Source of the DNA: Cytobacillus dafuensis
GTDB taxonomy: Bacteria; Bacillota; Bacilli; Bacillales; Cytobacillaceae
Length of the DNA: 64,000 nt
Direction: 5' to 3'
Assembly (NCBI RefSeq): GCF_007995155.1
Contig: NZ_CP042593.1
Span: 4,382,001-4,446,000 of the forward strand
The position numbers and the translations under genes were made by a program. The notes below the pieces were generated by a model that made no database searches, was not told the origin of the DNA, and saw nothing but the letters and a program-made list of their open reading frames with translations. Shown in pieces: positions 7,879 through 50,738 of this stretch (positions are counted from its first letter, which is position 1; every line of letters starts with the position of its first letter).

Positions 7879-7991
7879 CTTTAATTCACCCCATTATTTA
7901 CCGTTCTGGCTTTTTATTGAGTTCATTATACTATTTTTGTCAATCAGTAACAATGAAATGGGTATGTTTAAGATATGGAATAAAAAAACAT

Positions 7992-8183
7992 AAAGAAAAC
8001 TCGCCGATTGGCTTAGCCTTGGAAAGGCGAAGACAGAGGGGTAGTTGCACTTATCGCGCTCATACATGCCACGTCCTGTGGCATTCGCCCGACTAGGACA
8101 TCCTGTCCGTCGTACTTAATTCCTAAAATTGCCAACTGCGTCGAATCATCTTCTGTGCTGTCAATTTATACTTTATTAACGTG
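7992..8183. repeat. Dispersed repeat family B, copy B1 (no insert)
   Basis: About 190 bp, matching copy B2 at 37882-38126. It starts AAAGAAAACTCGCCGATTGG and ends near TTTATACTTTATTAACGTG. It holds the hairpins GCCAC-GTCCT-GTGGC (8068-8082) and GGACATCCTGTCC (8096-8108). B1 lacks the 60-bp insertion present in B2 and therefore shows the empty site. No open frame was seen in it. Confidence 0.85.
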
Positions 8184-9340: not shown

Positions 9341-9465
9341 TCATCCTCCTATAGTAAACGGCCACATGTAGTAAGCCAATTTAATAATTATTAATAATAT
9401 GACCAACTACAATCATCCTATAAAAATAAAAGGATTTCGTCCAAATATATGCTTATGAAATATAG

Positions 9466-9656
9466 TGAAACTTCAATCAGTGGGGTGGCCATCTCCCACT
9501 GATTGTTAGTTGCGGCCCACAGGAAGTGGGTCACACAGACGTTGCCAAACGATGTGGCGCTTTTAGTCTGTGTTCATTTTACGGGCTGTTTATCACCGAG
9601 TAAAAAGTTTTTGTTCTTTCAACTTCTTAAAATAGGTGGTCTTACAGCCCGTTAAT
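9466..9656 (-). repeat. Dispersed repeat family A, copy A1 (diverged)
   Basis: This copy keeps both ends of family A, AGTTTCACTATA at the right end and TTAACGGGCTGTAAGACC at the left end as read on the minus strand. The left-arm partner of the GGTGGTCTTACAGCCCG palindrome is degraded. The TAA stop of the upstream TPR gene falls inside the left end. It holds CCCAC-AGGAA-GTGGG and other family hairpins. Confidence 0.75.
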
Positions 9657-11148
9657 CTGAGAGTAAGCTGTTCACTAATTTTATATATTTAGCTAGTGTT
9701 GAAGTAGCCATACCGTATTTGTCAGCGATTTGCTTCTGGGAAGCTTTTCCCCCTCTTAACTTAATCCAGACGGTTTCAATAGCAGCAGCCCATGCTTTAT
9801 GATTTTTAATGGATTGATTACTATTAGAAATTTCTACAAAAACAGTAAACCACATTAAAAATAAACCTGCTTCCACGGTTCCAATAGGATGATAAGATTC
9901 ATAAAGAAGCGCCGCGGTATCGTGTACCGGCATAGCCTTCCAGCCATTCCCTTTGCGTATGCAGGATAAATACTCTCGTTCCAAATGAGAAAATCTCCTG
10001 TTTTGGTTTATTTCTCTTGAAGAAAGTATCTCTTCCTTCTCATCTGACATAGCAGTTAAGAAAAGGGCAAAAAGACGCTCCTCAATATAATCACTGTCTA
10101 ATTTCTTGAGAATCGATGAAGGATGGTTCTCCAGTCCGTTATGGATCGTTTTCTCATCATTCCAAGGCTCAAATCCTTCTTTTTCAGGATTTAGTTCAAC
10201 AGATTTTTCCCAAGCAGATTTTGCAATTTTTTCTCTGCCTGTAAAATAGGCAGCATAGGAGAGCCAATAGTAAAAAGCACCATCTCCATCAAATCCTTTT
10301 TTCTGCAGCCTGCGAAGCCATAAAAAAGCAGCATCGTACTCGCCGATTAATGCAAAAGTTGCTCCAAGTTTAAACTGATGCTCAATGGACAAAGGATTGA
10401 TTTTTTTCAGAACCTCTTTTAGTGCTTTTACTTCTTTATAATCACGCTCATAAAAAGCGAAAACAAGCTTGTTGCATAAAGCATGTAAATTACCTGGATT
10501 CTCTTCAAACACCTTATCAAGTATATCTGCTGCTTTTTGAATTTCTCCTAGATAAAAATACGCAAGTGCCAGATTATTATAGGCTGACCAGTATTCAGGA
10601 TACTCATCAATGACAGAATTAAGAATCTCAACCGCCTTCGGAAAATGACCCGACTCAAGAAGCTCCCGTGCATGCTCCTGTTTTGTAATAAGATCATCCT
10701 GTTCGTAAGGCTCCTCATCCAATTCCTCCGCTTCCATTGTGAGCAGCTCAAGAAGATCAATAGTATCATCAGCAAACTCCCCATCCTCGTCCAATTCCAA
10801 ATATAAATTGGCATGATGGTAGGCATCCTTAAAGAACCCTAAATGTGCATAGTTATTGGCGAGAAAATAATGACATTCCACCATATCAGCATCAAGCTCT
10901 TCAATAATCCGATGCAAAAGACGGTTAGCTTGCTGGTATTCACCCATTTCCGAATGAACAACAGCTAATTGGCAGACAATCATGGATTCATCTGGTTCAA
11001 GTTGAATCGCTCTCTGTAAATATTTTCTTGCTTTATAAAGATCCCTTTTGTGGTAAGCCTTTAATCCTTTTGAAAAATAATACTCACCTGTAGGGTTAAA
11101 TATTAGTAATTTCCCATTCGTTTTCCTTGCTTTAGAGTCTTTACCCAT
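9652..11148 (-). CDS. yvcD: TPR-repeat protein with C-terminal HTH-like segment (YvcD-like)
   Basis: A 498-residue cytoplasmic protein built mostly of tetratricopeptide repeats, for example GEYYFSKGLKAYHKRDLYKA and AYNNLALAYFYLGEIQKA. The last ~30 residues (KQIADKYGMATSTLAKYIKL) resemble a helix-turn-helix. The ATG at 11148 has GGTGGAGGAT just upstream; an upstream in-frame GTG lies inside that ribosome site. Position between his and trxB matches yvcD of B. subtilis. Function is unknown; TPRs suggest protein binding. Its stop codon is provided by repeat A1. Confidence 0.85.
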   Translation of the reverse strand: MGKDSKARKTNGKLLIFNPTGEYYFSKGLKAYHKRDLYKARKYLQRAIQLEPDESMIVCQLAVVHSEMGEYQQANRLLHRIIEELDADMVECHYFLANNYAHLGFFKDAYHHANLYLELDEDGEFADDTIDLLELLTMEAEELDEEPYEQDDLITKQEHARELLESGHFPKAVEILNSVIDEYPEYWSAYNNLALAYFYLGEIQKAADILDKVFEENPGNLHALCNKLVFAFYERDYKEVKALKEVLKKINPLSIEHQFKLGATFALIGEYDAAFLWLRRLQKKGFDGDGAFYYWLSYAAYFTGREKIAKSAWEKSVELNPEKEGFEPWNDEKTIHNGLENHPSSILKKLDSDYIEERLFALFLTAMSDEKEEILSSREINQNRRFSHLEREYLSCIRKGNGWKAMPVHDTAALLYESYHPIGTVEAGLFLMWFTVFVEISNSNQSIKNHKAWAAAIETVWIKLRGGKASQKQIADKYGMATSTLAKYIKLVNSLLSD

Positions 11149-19080: not shown

Positions 19081-19357
19081 ATAAAGTGAAACTTCCATCA
19101 GTGGGGGTTTTTCGACGCACAGGACGTGCTAGTGCCGACGTTGCCACAGGACGTGGCGTTCTTAGTCGGCTTTCATCCCCCACTGATGGTTAGTTGCGGC
19201 CCACAGGAAGTGGGTCACGCAGACGTTGCCACACGATGTGGCGCTTTTAGTCTGTGTTCATTTTACGGGCTTTTATGGGCAGTTGTCCCCCACCTATCTT
19301 CCTCGCTTCTCTCTCAATCTTGAGGTGGGGGTCTTACTGCTCGTTAATGCGGGATAA
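19081..19357 (-). repeat. Dispersed repeat family A, copy A2 (long form)
   Basis: About 277 bp. Read on the minus strand it starts at TTTATCCCGCATTAACGGGC and ends GAAGTTTCACTTTAT. The left-end palindrome is ACGRGCAGTAAGACCCCCAC paired with GTGGGGGACAACTGCCC. The right-end palindrome is CCATCAGTGGGGG paired with CCCCCACTGATGG. In this copy the right-end hairpin is capped by two extra AGGAC-loop hairpins (19117-19129, 19143-19157). Confidence 0.9.
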
Positions 19358-23364: not shown

Positions 23365-23700
23365 TTTGATTACCTCCGTTTTTGAATAGGAACGGCATTT
23401 AATAAATCACTCTATCCGTTTTGTTTCGGGTGAGGGACTGCCTTTTTATGACTTTATCCATTTATTTTAGCACTTTTTTCCGAAGAACCAAATGAATGAA
23501 TCCGAATCGTTCGAAAAATATTATAAAGTTCCTCATTGTAAAAAATATAATACATAATCAAATAGACATTATCATATAAAAGACCCTATAATTAAAGTGA
23601 ATATTGACCAAAGCTGGTAAATATGGGTTTAAGAGAAATCAACTACACAAAAATTCCATTGTATGTAAGGCCAGCTTAATCATTAATAGAGAAGGCTGTG

Positions 23701-23937
23701 TTAAAGCTCAGTTTTGAAAATGCAATTTTGTTGTTGATTGGAGTGGAAGGCGCGAGCTCCTCGAAAATGCTAACGCATTTTCTTCGTGCGGTGATTATTC
23801 TAGGAAGCTTATTCAATGTCCTGCGGGAAAAGCGAGTCAAAGGGAGACCCCGCAGGAGCGATAGCGACGAGGAGGCTTCCGGACCGCCCGCGATCGCTAA
23901 GTGCCTGCAGCGGAAATCAACAGGGAAGTTTAACATA
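23701..23937. repeat. Dispersed repeat family D, copy D1
   Basis: About 237 bp with short inverted ends TGTTGATT...AATCAACA. It has a GC-rich interior (CTCCTGCGGG-type palindrome, then GGGAGACCCCGCAGGAGCG). The flanking TTAAAGCT and GAAGTTTAACATA are shared with the small copy D2 at 40247-40316. A 61-bp insert (23762-23822) interrupts it. Related GC-rich repeats are common in Bacillus genomes. The rest of 23365-23700 shows only A/T-rich upstream sequence of hprK. Confidence 0.85.
23762..23822 (+). mobile_element. Mini-element E inserted in repeat D1
   Basis: A 61-bp insert starting CGAAAATGCTAACGCATTTT and ending ...CAATGTCCT, bracketed by TCCT on both sides (23758-23761 and 23819-23822). 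Removing it restores the expected CTCCTGCGGG of the host palindrome. Its subterminal hairpin is GAAAATGC-TAAC-GCATTTTC, then TTCGTGCGGTG. Compare 37994-38053 and 50649-50681. Confidence 0.7.
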
Positions 23938-23976
23938 GCCATAGAGAAATAACAGCTGATTTTTGAGGAGGAAATA

Positions 23977-33716: not shown

Positions 33717-33805
33717 TTTTTTTTAAAATTACCCAGACTTCCCCTAAAAAATAGGTTAATTCCTTTTGTTAGTAAGTGAAAATTATTTCTTGAATGAAAA
33801 AAGTT

Positions 33806-34099
33806 AATCAAACGATTGATTGATAGGAATCGAATAGATACTAATCAAACGATTGATTAATTTATGGATAGGATAGATGTTAATCAAACGATTGATTGAT
33901 TTAGGAATCGAATAGATACTAATCAAACGATTGATTAATTTAAGGATAGGATAGATGTTAATCAAACGATTGATTGATTTAGGAATCGAATAGATACTAA
34001 TCAAACGATTGATTAATTTAAGGATAGGATAGATGTTAATCAAACGATTGATTGATTAATTTAGGAGTCGGATAAATGTTAATCAAACGTTTGATTAAC
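33806..34099. repeat. Tandem array R4, 39-bp period, alternating units
   Basis: Eight copies of AATCAAACGATTGATT (last one AATCAAACGTTTGATT, a perfect palindrome). Spacings are 37, 39, 39, 39, 39, 39 and 43 bp. Linkers alternate between GATTTAGGAATCGAATAGA and AATTTAAGGATAGGATAGA types, giving a 78-bp higher-order unit. The array lies upstream of uvrB. Short open frames through it are repeat artefacts. Confidence 0.93.
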
Positions 34100-34123
34100 T
34101 CCCCAATTTCATATATAAGTAAC

Positions 34124-34156
34124 AAAAAACCTGTCGATGCATTAATTTCGACAGGT
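34124..34156 (-). terminator. Terminator after the GntR gene
   Basis: On the minus strand ACCTGTCGAA and TTCGACAGGT-type arms (about 9 bp) are followed by TTTTTTG. Repeat A3 lies between it and the GntR stop. Confidence 0.8.
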
Positions 34157-34162
34157 TCTTTG

Positions 34163-34437
34163 TTATCGCAGATTAACGGGCAGTAAGACCCCCACTTCAA
34201 GTTTGTGAGAGAATCAAAGAAACCTAAGTGGGGGATCAACTGCCCGTAAAGGCCCGACGACGGACACGATGTCCTAGTCAGGCGAAAGCCACAGGACGTG
34301 GCGTTTTGAGCGTGATTGGTTCAACTAACCATCAGTGGGGGATGAAAGCCGACTAAGAACGCCACGTCCTGTGGCAACGTCGGCACTAGCACGTCCTGTG
34401 CGTCGAAAAACCCTCACTGATGGAAGTTTCACTTTAT
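34163..34437 (+). repeat. Dispersed repeat family A, copy A3 (long form, inverted)
   Basis: About 275 bp in the opposite orientation to A2. It begins TTATCGCAGATTAACGGGCA and ends GAAGTTTCACTTTAT. It carries both end palindromes and at least four AGGAC/ACGAT-loop hairpins (34262-34274, 34288-34302, 34361-34375, 34389-34401). Part of its centre matches the complement of family B around 8068-8110. Confidence 0.9.
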
Positions 34438-37331: not shown

Positions 37332-37549
37332 ATAAAGTGAAACTTCCATCAGTGGGGGTTTTTTGATCCCCCACTGATGGTTAGTTGCGGCACACAGGAA
37401 GTGGGGTCACGCAGACGTTGCCACACGATGTGGCGCTTTTAGTCTGTGTTCATTTTACGGGCTTTTACGGGCAGTTGTCCCCCACCTATCTTCCTCGCTT
37501 CTCTCTCAATCTTGAGGTGGGGGTCTTACTGCCCGTTAATGCGGGATAA
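37332..37549 (-). repeat. Dispersed repeat family A, copy A4 (short form)
   Basis: About 218 bp; nearly the same as A5 (42144-42362). Read on the minus strand it runs from TTTATCCCGCATTAACGGGC to GAAGTTTCACTTTAT. The right-end hairpin CCATCAGTGGGGG/CCCCCACTGATGG has only a short loop, unlike A2 and A3. Confidence 0.92.
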
Positions 37550-37607: not shown

Positions 37608-37883
37608 ATGGCAAGAAGAAAACGCCGTCCACTTGTTCCTGATTCGAGAGGTGCCCTAGATCAATTTAAAAATCAAGTCATGGCTAATGAAGGATATCAT
37701 ATAGACAAAGAAAACCCAGACAATGTGAAATTTGAGGTAGCGAATGAAGTCGGCGTCCCCCTTCAAAAAGGCTATAACGGAAGATTAACCTCCAAGGAGG
37801 CTGGAAAAGTCGGCGGCAAAATTGGAGGCAGTATGGTTAAAGAGCTTGTCCGCATGGCACAGGAACGAATGAAGAACAAATAA
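37608..37883 (+). CDS. Alpha/beta-type small acid-soluble spore protein
   Basis: A 91-residue SASP. The core matches the DNA-binding family: ALDQFKNQVMANE, then KFEVANEVGV (the region cut by the spore protease GPR), then GGKIGGSMVKELVRMAQERM. The N-terminus is lysine/arginine rich (MARRKRRPLVPDSRGALDQ), and a central insert makes it longer than the usual 60-72 residues. ATGGAGGC lies upstream. Such proteins coat spore DNA. The TAA stop overlaps the first bases of repeat B2. Confidence 0.88.
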   Translation: MARRKRRPLVPDSRGALDQFKNQVMANEGYHIDKENPDNVKFEVANEVGVPLQKGYNGRLTSKEAGKVGGKIGGSMVKELVRMAQERMKNK

Positions 37884-38126
37884 AGAAAACTCGCCGATTG
37901 GCAAGCCTTGGAAAGGCGAAGACAGAGGCGTAGTTGCACTTATCGCGCTCATACTTGCCACGTCCTGTGGCATTCGCCCGACTTGGACATCCTCGTAAAA
38001 GCTATCGCTTTTCCTTCGTGCGATGTGAATGCTATCGAAGCCCTCCTTGTCCTGTCCGTCGTACTTAATTCCTAAAATTGTAAACTGCGTCGGGTCATCT
38101 TCTCCGCGGGCAATTTATTCTTTCTT
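37882..38126. repeat. Dispersed repeat family B, copy B2 (with insert)
   Basis: Starts AAAGAAAACTCGCCGATTGG at the SASP stop and ends near TTTATTCTTTCTTAATGTG. It matches B1 except for a 60-bp insertion at 37994-38053. Hairpin GCCAC-GTCCT-GTGGC is at 37957-37971. Confidence 0.88.
37994..38053 (+). mobile_element. Mini-element E inserted in repeat B2
   Basis: 60 bp, CGTAAAAGCTATCGCTTTTC at the left and ...CTTGTCCT at the right, bracketed by TCCT (37990-37993 and 38050-38053). B1 has the uninterrupted GGACATCCTGTCC at the same place. The subterminal hairpin is AAAAGC-TATC-GCTTTT followed by CTTCGTGCGATGT. Confidence 0.75.
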
Positions 38127-38214
38127 AATGTGTAATAAGAGATTGGAAATCTTTAACCATTGCCAAATAACAAATAATTGATTATACTTCCGATATAATT
38201 CAATATTCCCATTC

Positions 38215-38395
38215 GCCGATGGGATAGAGGCTGCTGCTTATAAAAGTAGAACAGACGAGATTCAATGACATCGTTGACTCTGTTTAAAAGGATAAGCTGC
38301 CGAAGTTTGGATTTTTCATTGAATGTCCATGCTGGGGATGTTTTCGAATAGGAACATCACTGTCACGTAATTTTTACGTGGAGAACTATCTTCGG
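38215..38395 (+). ncRNA. Lysine riboswitch (L-box)
   Basis: Conserved L-box blocks are readable in order: GATAGAGG near the 5' end, GCCGAAG in the middle, TGCTGGGG, CTGTC and GTGGAGAACTATC. P1 is GATAG paired with CTATC (38386-38390). An intrinsic terminator follows at 38418-38452, so lysine binding should stop transcription before lysP. The downstream gene, a close LysP relative, agrees with this. Confidence 0.9.
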
Positions 38396-38417
38396 AAGGA
38401 TTAAACGGACTTATTCA

Positions 38418-38452: not shown

Positions 38453-38492
38453 GTTTTAAGAAAAGGTATAAATTTTCTCTAGTTAGAGAAAT

Positions 38493-38675
38493 GTCTAGCT
38501 CCAGCGCCTACCCCTGACGTACAGGACGTACTAGTGTCGACAATGCGACAGGACGTCGCGTTTTTGTCGACCTCGAGGTCATAAGCCAGTCCGCCAAGAA
38601 GGTTAAAGAACAACCTTCTCATCGGCCTGTCTTATGCTTGTCGGGGGTGAGCAAGGCGCTTGCGCTTTTCTTATA
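38493..38675 (+). repeat. Dispersed repeat family C, copy C2
   Basis: Begins TCTAGCTCCAGCGCCTACCC and ends GCAAGGCGCTTGCGCTTTT; matches C1 at 5287-5510 in opposite orientation. It carries GTAC-AGGAC-GTAC (38519-38531) and GCGAC-AGGAC-GTCGC (38545-38559), which C1 lacks. It lies between the riboswitch terminator and the lysP ribosome site, so it is part of the lysP leader. Confidence 0.88.
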
Positions 38676-42143: not shown

Positions 42144-42362
42144 ATAAAGTGAAACTTCCATCAGTGGGGGTTTTTTTCATCCCCCACTGATGGTTAGTTG
42201 CGGCCCACAGGAAGTGGGTCACGCAGACGTTGCCACACGATGTGGCGCTTTTAGTCTGTGTTCATTTTACGGGCTTTTACGGGCAGTTGTCCCCCACCTA
42301 TCTTCCTCGCTTCTCTCTCAATCTTGAGGTGGGGGTCTTACTGCCCGTTAATGCGGGATAAA
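42144..42362 (-). repeat. Dispersed repeat family A, copy A5 (short form)
   Basis: About 219 bp, nearly identical to A4. Flanks are ...TATATAAAGTGAAAC on one side and GCGGGATAAATTTATTAAC on the other. It lies between the DUF3784 gene and the hydrolase. Confidence 0.92.
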
Positions 42363-43330: not shown

Positions 43331-43518
43331 TGTAAAATCCTTCAATTCTAAACTCACCTCTACTATGCTTATGTTTAAATTGTAACATATACTTTACTTT
43401 TTACAAATATATATTACAAAATTAATACCATATAAGGAGTTATTAGCCTTCTTCCACAATCAAGCCCGAGACATGAAAAAGGCGCGTTTCTAAATAAACG
43501 CGCCCTCTCGTATTATAA

Positions 43519-43554
43519 GGTCAGCCAGAAAATATTTCTGGTTGACCATTTTTT
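43519..43554 (+). terminator. Hairpin with T-tract upstream of the IS110 leader
   Basis: GGTCAGCCAGAAA pairs with TTTCTGGTTGACC (one G-T pair) and is followed by ATTTTTTAT. A second hairpin, GGCGCGTTT/AACGCGCC, lies at 43481-43504. Together they would block read-through into the transposase. Whether they belong to the element is unclear. Confidence 0.75.
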
Positions 43555-43569
43555 ATATCGATATATGAT

Positions 43570-43735
43570 AACGGTAGCCAGGGTAGAACGTTCGCGCCCG
43601 TGGGGCTAAGACCCCGTCCGCAAAACAGTTCGCCCCCTACTTGTAGAAACATGTTTGAGGCTGGTTGGGACAATGATCTCGTATAACAAGCGAAGCTATG
43701 ACACTATGAGGAGGATTTAGGGGTTACCGGCTATT
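43570..43735 (+). ncRNA. Candidate bridge RNA of the IS110 element
   Basis: The non-coding segment between the left end and the transposase has GGTAGCC (43573-43579), partly complementary to GGCTA (43729-43733), a GGGG/CCCC hairpin at 43602-43615, and further loops. IS110-family members express a ~170-180 base bridge RNA here, which pairs with target and donor DNA. The length of ~166 fits. Guide loops were not assigned. Confidence 0.5.
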
Positions 43736-43758
43736 ATATTTTTGAAGGAGGAATTTTA

Positions 43759-44994
43759 ATGAATCCAGTCGTTGGTCTGGATGTGGCAAAAGGTGAAAGT
43801 CAGATTCAAGCATACTTGGAAAGAAAGAAGCCCTACAGGAAAAGTTTCAAAGTAAAACATGATCTTGATGGGTTAGCTAGTTTATTAGATTTTATTAAAG
43901 AAATAGAAGATATTTCAGGAGAACGTCCCCCTCTTGTAATGGAATCAACGGGTCATTATCACACACCGGTTGTTCAATATTTTGAGGAAAAAGGCTATTT
44001 AATCATTATCGTAAATCCACTAATCTCTTATAAAGCAAAAAGTTCTAGTTTGCGAAAGGTAAAAACAGATATCATTGATGCCAATCACCTCTGCGAGCTG
44101 TATTATAAAGAGGATTTAGAACCTTATAAAAAGCGCGGTATCCAACTTATGAACTTACGTCATCTTACGAGACAGCACGATAATATTACAGGCATGTTTG
44201 TACAAACCAAACTACAATTTCAGGCAGTATTGGATCAAGTTTTTCCTGAATATAGTAAGGTTTTTGGAGACTTATATTCGGATGTTTCTTTAAAAACATT
44301 ACAAGCATTTCCTACTTCAGAAGATGTCTTGAAAGGTGATACTGAAAGATTAACAACTAAAATAAAAGAATTCTGTAATACTCGTTCACTACAATGGGCA
44401 AACAAACAGGCTGAAAAGCTAATGACTGCCGCAGCTCAAAACCCTTTTCAGAAGGCTTTATACTCTAGTCTTGCCCTTAGCTTAGATATGTATATTAATA
44501 TGCTCTTTGAATACAAAAAACATCTATCCATGCTTGAAAATGAGATAGATGCTTTAGCAAAAAGTATTGAAGAATCTAAGATTATCCGATCAATTCCCGG
44601 TATCGGTGAAAAAATCGCAGCCACGATTATTTCTGAAATTGGGGAAATTGAAAGGTTTAATCACCCTAAGAAACTAGTCGCATTTGCTGGTCTTGATCCA
44701 AGTGTCTTTGAATCTGGCACATTCAAAGGTACTTACAATCGAATTACCAAAAGAGGCTCTAGCAGACTACGTCAAGCTTTGTATATGGCTGTTAAATGTG
44801 CTATTCGTGACTGTCGCAAACAGAAAACAACGGATGAGATCCTTCCTCGTAATAAGAAATTACGAGCGTTTTATGATAAAAAACGGGAAGAAGGAAAACC
44901 TTTTAGAGTAGCTGTGATAGCTTGTTCAAACAAACTCTTACATTGGATTTATGCACTTTTAAAAAACAAAACATCTTTCCTAGATTTAGCTTGA
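43759..44994 (+). CDS. IS110-family transposase/recombinase
   Basis: A 411-residue DEDD recombinase that is guided by a bridge RNA. The N-terminal RuvC-like domain has VVGLDVAKGE (first Asp), VMESTGHY (Glu) and VKTDIIDANHL (Asp pair). The C-terminal Transposase_20 domain has IRSIPGIGEKIAATIISEIG and AFAGLDPSVFESG, with the catalytic Ser region TKRGSSRLRQAL. GAAGGAGGAATTTTA precedes the ATG. The frame is intact, so it may be active. Confidence 0.95.
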   Translation: MNPVVGLDVAKGESQIQAYLERKKPYRKSFKVKHDLDGLASLLDFIKEIEDISGERPPLVMESTGHYHTPVVQYFEEKGYLIIIVNPLISYKAKSSSLRKVKTDIIDANHLCELYYKEDLEPYKKRGIQLMNLRHLTRQHDNITGMFVQTKLQFQAVLDQVFPEYSKVFGDLYSDVSLKTLQAFPTSEDVLKGDTERLTTKIKEFCNTRSLQWANKQAEKLMTAAAQNPFQKALYSSLALSLDMYINMLFEYKKHLSMLENEIDALAKSIEESKIIRSIPGIGEKIAATIISEIGEIERFNHPKKLVAFAGLDPSVFESGTFKGTYNRITKRGSSRLRQALYMAVKCAIRDCRKQKTTDEILPRNKKLRAFYDKKREEGKPFRVAVIACSNKLLHWIYALLKNKTSFLDLA

Positions 44995-45109
44995 TTTAAC
45001 AATTTAACCAAGTAGTCCAGAACCTTCCAAATATAGTGTTTGGACGGTTATTTGGTATGCACAAATTTAGTATAACATGATATTTTTTATATTTTTATTG
45101 AAAAATGTT

Positions 45110-45230
45110 GACAACTATTGGCTGGTTTTGTTGAAGATTAAGATAATTTTTATGATTGCTGCCTTTAGCTTGTATGCCTTGCTATTATTGGCTGAAATGA
45201 AAGACAACTATTAGCTGGTTTTGTTGAAGA
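45110..45230. repeat. Direct repeat pair, 93 bp apart
   Basis: GACAACTATTGGCTGGTTTT followed by GTTGAAGA at about 45110 recurs with one change at about 45203. A third, weaker match (TATTATTGGCTG) lies at 45184. It is placed between the IS110 element and the EamA gene; the rest of 44995-45375 shows no gene. Confidence 0.7.
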
Positions 45231-50494: not shown

Positions 50495-50738
50495 TTTATC
50501 GAGATTAACGGGAAGTAAAACCCTTAACGAAAAGACTTAGAGGGATCGATGAGGATAAGTGAGGGTTAACTACCCGTAATGGCACGATTAAAGGAACAAA
50601 GACTAAGACCGCCACGTCCTGTGGCAACGTCTGTTTAACCCACATCCTCGTAAAAGCTACCGCTTTTCCTTCGTGCGATGTATAAGCACTCAGTAGTAAG
50701 GATGAAGAAAACCCCCACTGAGTGAAACTTCACTTTAT
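50495..50738 (+). repeat. Dispersed repeat family A, copy A6 (diverged, with E fragment)
   Basis: Begins TTTATCGAGATTAACGGGAA and ends GAAACTTCACTTTAT. The left arm pairs AAGTAAAACCCTTA-type with GAGGGTTAACTACCCG. GCCAC-GTCCT-GTGGC is at 50611-50625. A fragment of mini-element E starts at 50649. The remaining 50222-50494 and 50739-50901 hold only promoter-like A/T-rich DNA. Confidence 0.8.
50649..50681 (+). mobile_element. Mini-element E, left part only, inside A6
   Basis: CGTAAAAGCTACCGCTTTTC then CTTCGTGCGATGT follow TCCT (50645-50648). In other A copies this place is the TTCCT loop of the CCCAC/GTGGG hairpin. The right half of E and the host's GTGGG arm are missing. Confidence 0.65.

Follow-up and report, generated by a model that had tools for sequence, protein, structure and literature searches.

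A 60-bp structured cassette in the hairpin loops of Cytobacillus repeats: a candidate for a very small mobile DNA unit

The window, by which we mean the whole 64,000-nt stretch analyzed here (G000:C1:4382001-4446000, within the single-contig, 4.9-Mb genome of Cytobacillus dafuensis), holds two copies of one repeat, B1 and B2, that differ by some 60 bp in the loop of a hairpin. Is this segment, hereafter E, a unit that enters such loops, or is it a piece of the repeat that other copies have lost?

Element E and the repeats that hold it

E interrupts the B2 loop GGACATCCT^GTCC directly after TCCT (37990..37993, + strand), and the inserted 60 bp (37994..38053, + strand) themselves end in TCCT, as an earlier note on this DNA had described. 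Its reading of B1 and B2 as empty and filled forms of one site also held, given that B1 carries GGACATCCTGTCC at window positions 8096-8108 and B2 the same hairpin, split. This pattern is not due to chance, because a 76-bp stretch recurs, with 8 other full or near-full matches at 93–100% identity in the same genome, and because sister loci hold the exact empty loops, with the empty loop 2, GGACATCCTGTCC, found letter for letter in 14 of 39 loci and GCCACGTCCTGTGGC in 15 of 39. The search for further genomic copies proposed in the note revealed that E is multi-copy and also occurs outside the B family, in several host repeats. Assignment of the window copy to what we call class I rested on its sequence, on these 8 near-full-length matches and on a model search.

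E was about 57–65 bp long, with near-constant ends of its own, TCCTC and CCTTG. At a second class of site (class II, below), TCCT represents the first four bases of E itself; therefore, both classes are accommodated by the register 37990-38049 (TCCT...CCTTG), which is the originally noted unit shifted by 4 and in which E includes the TCCT to the left of the split. Our first end finder partly fixed the ends, requiring near-TCCT on the left and T after the right end. When repeated without end conditions on a larger set of all loci collected, using internal motifs only, the search gave TCCT at the left end of 154 of 161 copies, and the 132 copies with a parsable right end were followed by T in 128 cases, as TCCT in 74 and as TGGA in 47. 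E is thus a discrete unit also by a finder free of end conditions, and neither freely differing ends nor empty sites of random length, both named beforehand as signs against such a unit, were encountered, with the exception of a small number of degenerate or recombinant copies.

The host of the window copy is a repeat that we designate R1. B2 (37881..38135, + strand, ends approximate) contains a nested module, M1, with E inside it (37943..38061, + strand), flanked by CACTTA and TACTTA in the loop of the R1 hairpin, and has no counterpart at the orthologous place in the related genome G149. B1 (7991..8183, + strand, right end approximate) contains M1 with both loops empty. M1 is 59 bp long when empty, a two-hairpin module resembling the Bacillaceae-1 RNA of Rfam (RF01690), against which the M1 of one locus (L053) scored 21.3 bits, under the cut-off of 35. 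Its hairpin 1 (37957..37971, + strand, GCCACGTCCTGTGGC) is an empty class I site in B2 and is filled in other copies. The nested series, comprising the window copy and 39 loci of the same genome, included 8 copies without M1, 13 with M1 but no E, 6 with E in M1 loop 1 only, 3 with E in loop 2 only, among them the window copy, and 4 with both loops filled; the remainder were three E hybrids (L047-L049), one R4/R1 chimera (L043), one remnant (L077), and one locus with M1 and E inside another host repeat (L050). The two R1 loops were occupied by different E subfamilies. Permissive Rfam scans for a known RNA identity of R1 and E yielded nothing convincing. A lysine riboswitch (window 38217-38396) lies between the E-bearing R1 and a permease-like gene.

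Beyond R1, E was hosted by the loop of a repeat R2, by one end of R2, by a repeat R4 and by hairpin loops of Bacillaceae-1 RNA copies. The R2 copy in the window (38490..38620, − strand, partial span) is empty at both its class II site (38502/38503) and its class I loop (38545-38559), and both are filled in G149. R4 (23694..23940, + strand) is a MITE-like repeat with inverted ends and an 8-bp flanking duplication, ATAGAGAA at 23686-23693 and 23941-23948, that is, the terminal inverted repeats and target duplication of a DDE-type MITE; it contains a diverged E of R4 type (23758..23822, + strand). Of 9 R4-like loci read from two further families of the order, 6 carried full-length E, so E may be old in R4. 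A 3′-truncated E (50642..50697, + strand) sits in hairpin 2 of the Bacillaceae-1 copy at 50587-50654, and other copies of this RNA, such as L079 and L080, also contained E. E itself had no match to RF01690 at the gathering or the E-value ≤0.1 level.

Bacillaceae-1 RNA had at least 150 matches in the genome, occurring singly, paired or within the loops of other hairpins, with window copies at 9516-9582, 19116-19266, 34337-34402, 37391-37458, 42204-42270 and 50587-50654. The repeat at window 9461-9657, which holds one of these copies, is cleanly missing from G149. Bacillaceae-1 RNA looks like a nested, mobile module.

A covariance model built from 13 E copies returned 37 strong matches (E-value ≤1e-7) and 53 weaker ones in the genome; 50 of the latter were called R4-type, about 17 upon reading and the others by score and length, and 3 were degenerate or truncated E. 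The family survey placed E in 71 genomes out of 151, belonging to 12 of the 25 genera, and a sample of the order that included this family yielded 28 E-bearing genomes out of 199, from 15 of the 98 genera; per-genome counts of 36 in the former and 27 in the latter stand for at least 36 and at least 27. Among the matches listed, E-bearing records were titled mainly Cytobacillus, Neobacillus, Bacillus and Caldibacillus, with one record titled Paenibacillus and one Pseudomonas, which may be misnamed.

Two classes of insertion site and a conserved fold

We collected 229 E-like stretches from the genome itself, the family-survey loci and a contig scan that contributed at least 120 stretches, and parsed 179 of them, leaving out 31 without a clear right end and 19 of R4 type. 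The parsed copies were followed by TCCT in 109 cases (class I), by TGGA in 55 (class II) and by scattered variants in 15. Class I sites read TCCT^G and lay mostly in NTCCT pentaloops of unrelated palindromes, and class II sites, found in three distinct repeats, mostly read C^TGGAGC. A constant TCCT on the left, as the earlier note expected, therefore fails at class II, where copies without TCCT flanks, which the note had named as evidence against its view, do occur, as shown by TGGA after 55 of the 179 copies.

The preference for hairpin loops, on the other hand, was strong, with E favoring TCCT in palindrome tips. The 109 class I copies reduced to 69 distinct flanks, 63 of which had at least 3 of 4 pairs around NTCCT in one register with a five-base loop. 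In this register, 4.33 of 6 positions were paired, compared to a shuffled mean of 2.97 and maximum of 3.35, and the other offsets tested had 1.3–2.0 pairs of 6 versus 4.3. R4 is the exception within class I, with its TCCTG located at a stem.

E folds into two short hairpins. The subterminal hairpin AAAAGC-TATC-GCTTTT that had been noted is present at 37997..38012 (+ strand), and its structure is conserved, with two foot pairs covarying across copies. Counted by pattern in the 164 of 173 sequences that could be parsed, standard pairing was present in 154 sequences for one foot pair and in 121 for the other, involving several pair types, compared to means of 77.8 and 54.4 in shuffles, in which relatedness remains; a 47-row alignment was excluded from the pair counts because one column was misplaced between E subtypes. 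Five single copies folded at z −0.9 to −4.7 versus shuffles, the window copy being the weakest and folding little better than shuffles (z −1.6 as DNA, −0.9 as RNA).

Spread between hosts and turnover between relatives

Across genera, the similarity of E copies is not predicted by host. This comparison covered 107 distinct E from Cytobacillus and Neobacillus at five host sites common to both, leaving out other genera and unassigned hosts. In 69 of 71 cases, the closest match to an E came from a different host repeat within its own genus, and in none from the matching host in the other genus, with 2 ties; with equal pools, the averages were 56.6 and 11.4 of 71, respectively. Between genera, mean identity was 0.774 when the host was shared and 0.778 when it was not; inside a genus, the corresponding values were 0.893 and 0.816. 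Given that same-host copies are more alike inside a genus, much of the copying occurs together with the host repeat. Because E is short, identities are weak evidence. In the three best pairs from unrelated hosts of one genome, E was 95–97% identical with 1–6 identical flank bases per side, and in C. dafuensis, E of R1 hairpin 1 and E of the R2 loop were 95% identical with 3 identical flank bases on the left and 6 on the right, TCCT included.

Genome G149 is 94% identical in a neighboring gene and largely collinear with C. dafuensis over some 330 kb, with 25 E copies in the two collinear stretches (9 in one, 16 in the other). For 18 copies, the left and right flanks both had a counterpart in the other genome, and in none of the 18 was E found at the same site; alignments or breaks were read for a dozen of the 18 places. 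In three cases, the corresponding gap of the other genome does contain an E, though one carried by another repeat (R1 in the window versus R2 copies in G149). Three of the 18 sit in host copies common to both genomes, all filled in G149 and empty in C. dafuensis, namely the class II and class I sites of R2 at 38490-38620 and an R4 at about 4,381,640 of G000, so that E is indeed present or absent at shared host repeats. About 55 bp are also missing from another part of the R2 copy in G149, which could therefore have been converted by a different R2 copy. G149 further lacks entire host repeats, among them the E-bearing R1 copy B2 and the R4 at 23694..23940; the latter site has a single TAGAGAA in G149 and two ATAGAGAA in the window, indicating that R4 was gained in C. 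dafuensis. Most unshared E lie where the genomes differ by more than E alone. An alternating array of AATCAAACGATTGATTGAT-type units at window 33800-34240 is also missing from G149, which has a different repeat array there.

The placement of E has changed since the two close relatives split. However, presence and absence do not prove gain, since the TCCT repeats flanking class I copies allow exact loss by slippage, and since repeats that differ in E differ elsewhere too, conversion between repeats could carry E. With near-constant ends, unrelated hosts and presence that differs between close species, E looks like a very small mobile DNA unit.

How E may move, and its place among known systems

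We favor, at a probability of roughly 0.55, the explanation that E is a mobile cassette, structured, site-specific and non-autonomous, which some enzyme supplied in trans moves and which is also multiplied with its hosts. Such a cassette would enter pre-existing palindromic repeats at TCCT^G, usually at the loop tip, or at C^TGGAGC, and would thereby nest inside modules themselves nested in larger repeats. The enzyme, acting in trans, would recognize the folded ends of E, as favored by near-constant ends at two unlike targets, and copies would be further multiplied along with host repeats and altered by recombination, either from one E copy to another or at TCCTG tips held in common. E would then be a miniature non-autonomous element, and there is a fair chance that it is of a more distinct kind. 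A bolder version is a tentative possibility: E could be the first described of minimal structure-targeted cassettes of about 60 nt with fixed ends, inserted into single-stranded palindrome tips by a non-Y1 recombinase and building R1 > M1 > E matryoshka repeats that grow at hairpin tips.

The main rival, which we regard as doubtful, is exchange at palindrome tips without a dedicated enzyme, in which hairpin tips are broken or arrest replication, and the DNA lying between two TCCTs is carried along by template switching or gene conversion among TCCTG-sharing palindromes. The chimera L043 speaks for it, joining the left part of R4 to the right part of R1 exactly at CGTCCT|G, and the G149 ortholog of the R1 of B1 likewise begins exactly at CCTGTCC. 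The three E hybrids of the R1 series, E-to-E joints between host sites (L212, L237, L247, L254) and the way E follows its host inside a genus are also in its favor. However, class II sites share a single T with the E junction and yet have exact boundaries, and the ends of E are identical in both site classes.

The earlier note had been reminded of IS200/IS605 single-strand transposition, with a HUH enzyme acting in trans; the mover would then be a Y1 enzyme of IS200/IS605 or RAYT type. TCCT at both class I junctions and the covarying subterminal hairpin are consistent with this proposal, as are the Y1 homologs in 109 of 151 family genomes. The search for a Y1/HUH transposase that the note had called for did find one RAYT-like Y1 gene in the genome (L088), with a stop-ridden relative in G149:C11 at about 390,400, but no link to E: within about 1.3 kb on either side of the gene, there was no E, R1, R2 or R4 motif, with one loose 2-error match to the loop motif nearby. 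Co-occurrence was patchy, given that 6 of the 12 genomes of the genus with 27 or more E had no PF01797 match (G017, G037, G050, G071, G086 and G141, one of them assembled in a single contig and another in two), while 2 of the 4 E-free genomes of the genus did have a Y1 match. This weakens RAYT as the mover, and class II targets differ, with no direct fit to an IS608-like fixed target. The likeness to IS200/IS605 thus stands with regard to the conserved subterminal hairpin, and not with regard to one fixed 5′ tetranucleotide flank or to Y1 in E-rich genomes. The mover of E is probably not Y1, although a past Y1 or another HUH enzyme may have served, and the HUH proposal as worded is, to us, unlikely.

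Orientation relative to replication, with the origin placed by dnaA at base 1 and GC skew, gave no further support to single-strand transposition. Strong E copies were head-on to the fork in 27 of 36 cases (36 of 37 strong matches entered), which might be taken as a lagging-strand bias. However, R4-type copies were co-oriented with the fork in 41 of 50, and among the R1 copies L039-L076, those with M1 and no E were head-on in 13 of 13, compared to 4 of 8 for bare R1. Given that these orientations differ, the orientation of E belongs to its host repeat. Among the best 64 Bacillaceae-1 matches, 53 point with the fork.

Among the 229 E-like stretches, all found via E itself, no longer element with the same ends was noticed. 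As a possible mover, IS110 was present in 33 of 36 genomes of the genus and did not clearly track E, with 0 copies in G122 (18 E) and 13 in the E-free G139, and its ends were unlike E in both of the own-genome copies compared, out of 8. The IS110-family element of the window (43496-45143) has its left end within a terminator-like hairpin and is 99.6% identical to another copy at about 4.35 Mb.

That E is an old part of the repeats, with empty sites made by exact deletion between flanking TCCT and apparent spread reflecting concerted evolution of whole repeats, is very improbable: TCCT direct repeats flank class I copies, host repeats turn over wholesale and R4-like repeats of two other families hold full-length E, but exact empty sites also occur at class II sites without such repeats, the two R1 loops hold different E subfamilies, and identity across genera is almost the same with or without a shared host (0.774 versus 0.778).

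A cassette of this kind would rank close to the minimum size for mobile DNA, and E bears on the origin of REP-like palindromes and of modular Bacillaceae repeats. Given a countable, boundary-exact unit, empty and filled sites, relatives that differ and NTCCT pentaloops that can be assayed, repeat growth becomes directly testable. Our results also suggest that the Rfam Bacillaceae-1 family includes a mobile module hosting further insertions. No description of E was found in the titles and abstract openings of the open-licence literature searched.

IS200/IS605 elements and their derivatives (PATEs) have a target tetranucleotide, a subterminal hairpin and no inverted terminal repeats. E is like them in its tetranucleotide-like TCCT, its subterminal hairpin and its lack of inverted terminal repeats, and unlike them in its length of about 60 bp and its two different targets, with no enzyme or parent element found. 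REP/REPIN sequences with RAYT (TnpA-REP; PMC8266576, PMC6006769) are short, structured, non-coding and multi-copy, with a HUH enzyme as their presumed mover in trans. E is also short, structured, non-coding and present in many copies, but it has no GTAG-type tag at the hairpin foot (47-sequence alignment, by inspection) and has fixed insertion points inside other repeats, half of the E-rich genomes of the genus have no Y1 match, and the RAYT-like gene of C. dafuensis is not flanked by copies within about 1.3 kb.

Insertion within palindromic repeats is shared with IS621 and IS1397, which are full-size insertion sequences with a transposase that target REP palindromes (PMC1525189), but E is not a full-size IS, and the IS110 copy of the window has other ends. 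E is small, non-coding and interspersed like MITEs such as bcr1 (named in PMC3733652), and its host R4 fits the MITE kind; unlike MITEs, E has ends, TCCTC and CCTTG, that are not inverted repeats, and it has no variable target duplication, the site sequence being fixed. Finally, Bacillaceae-1 RNA (RF01690; PMC2864571) provides in its TCCT loops a main class I host and has, by eye, the same architecture as M1; E is an insertion into copies of this RNA rather than part of the family.
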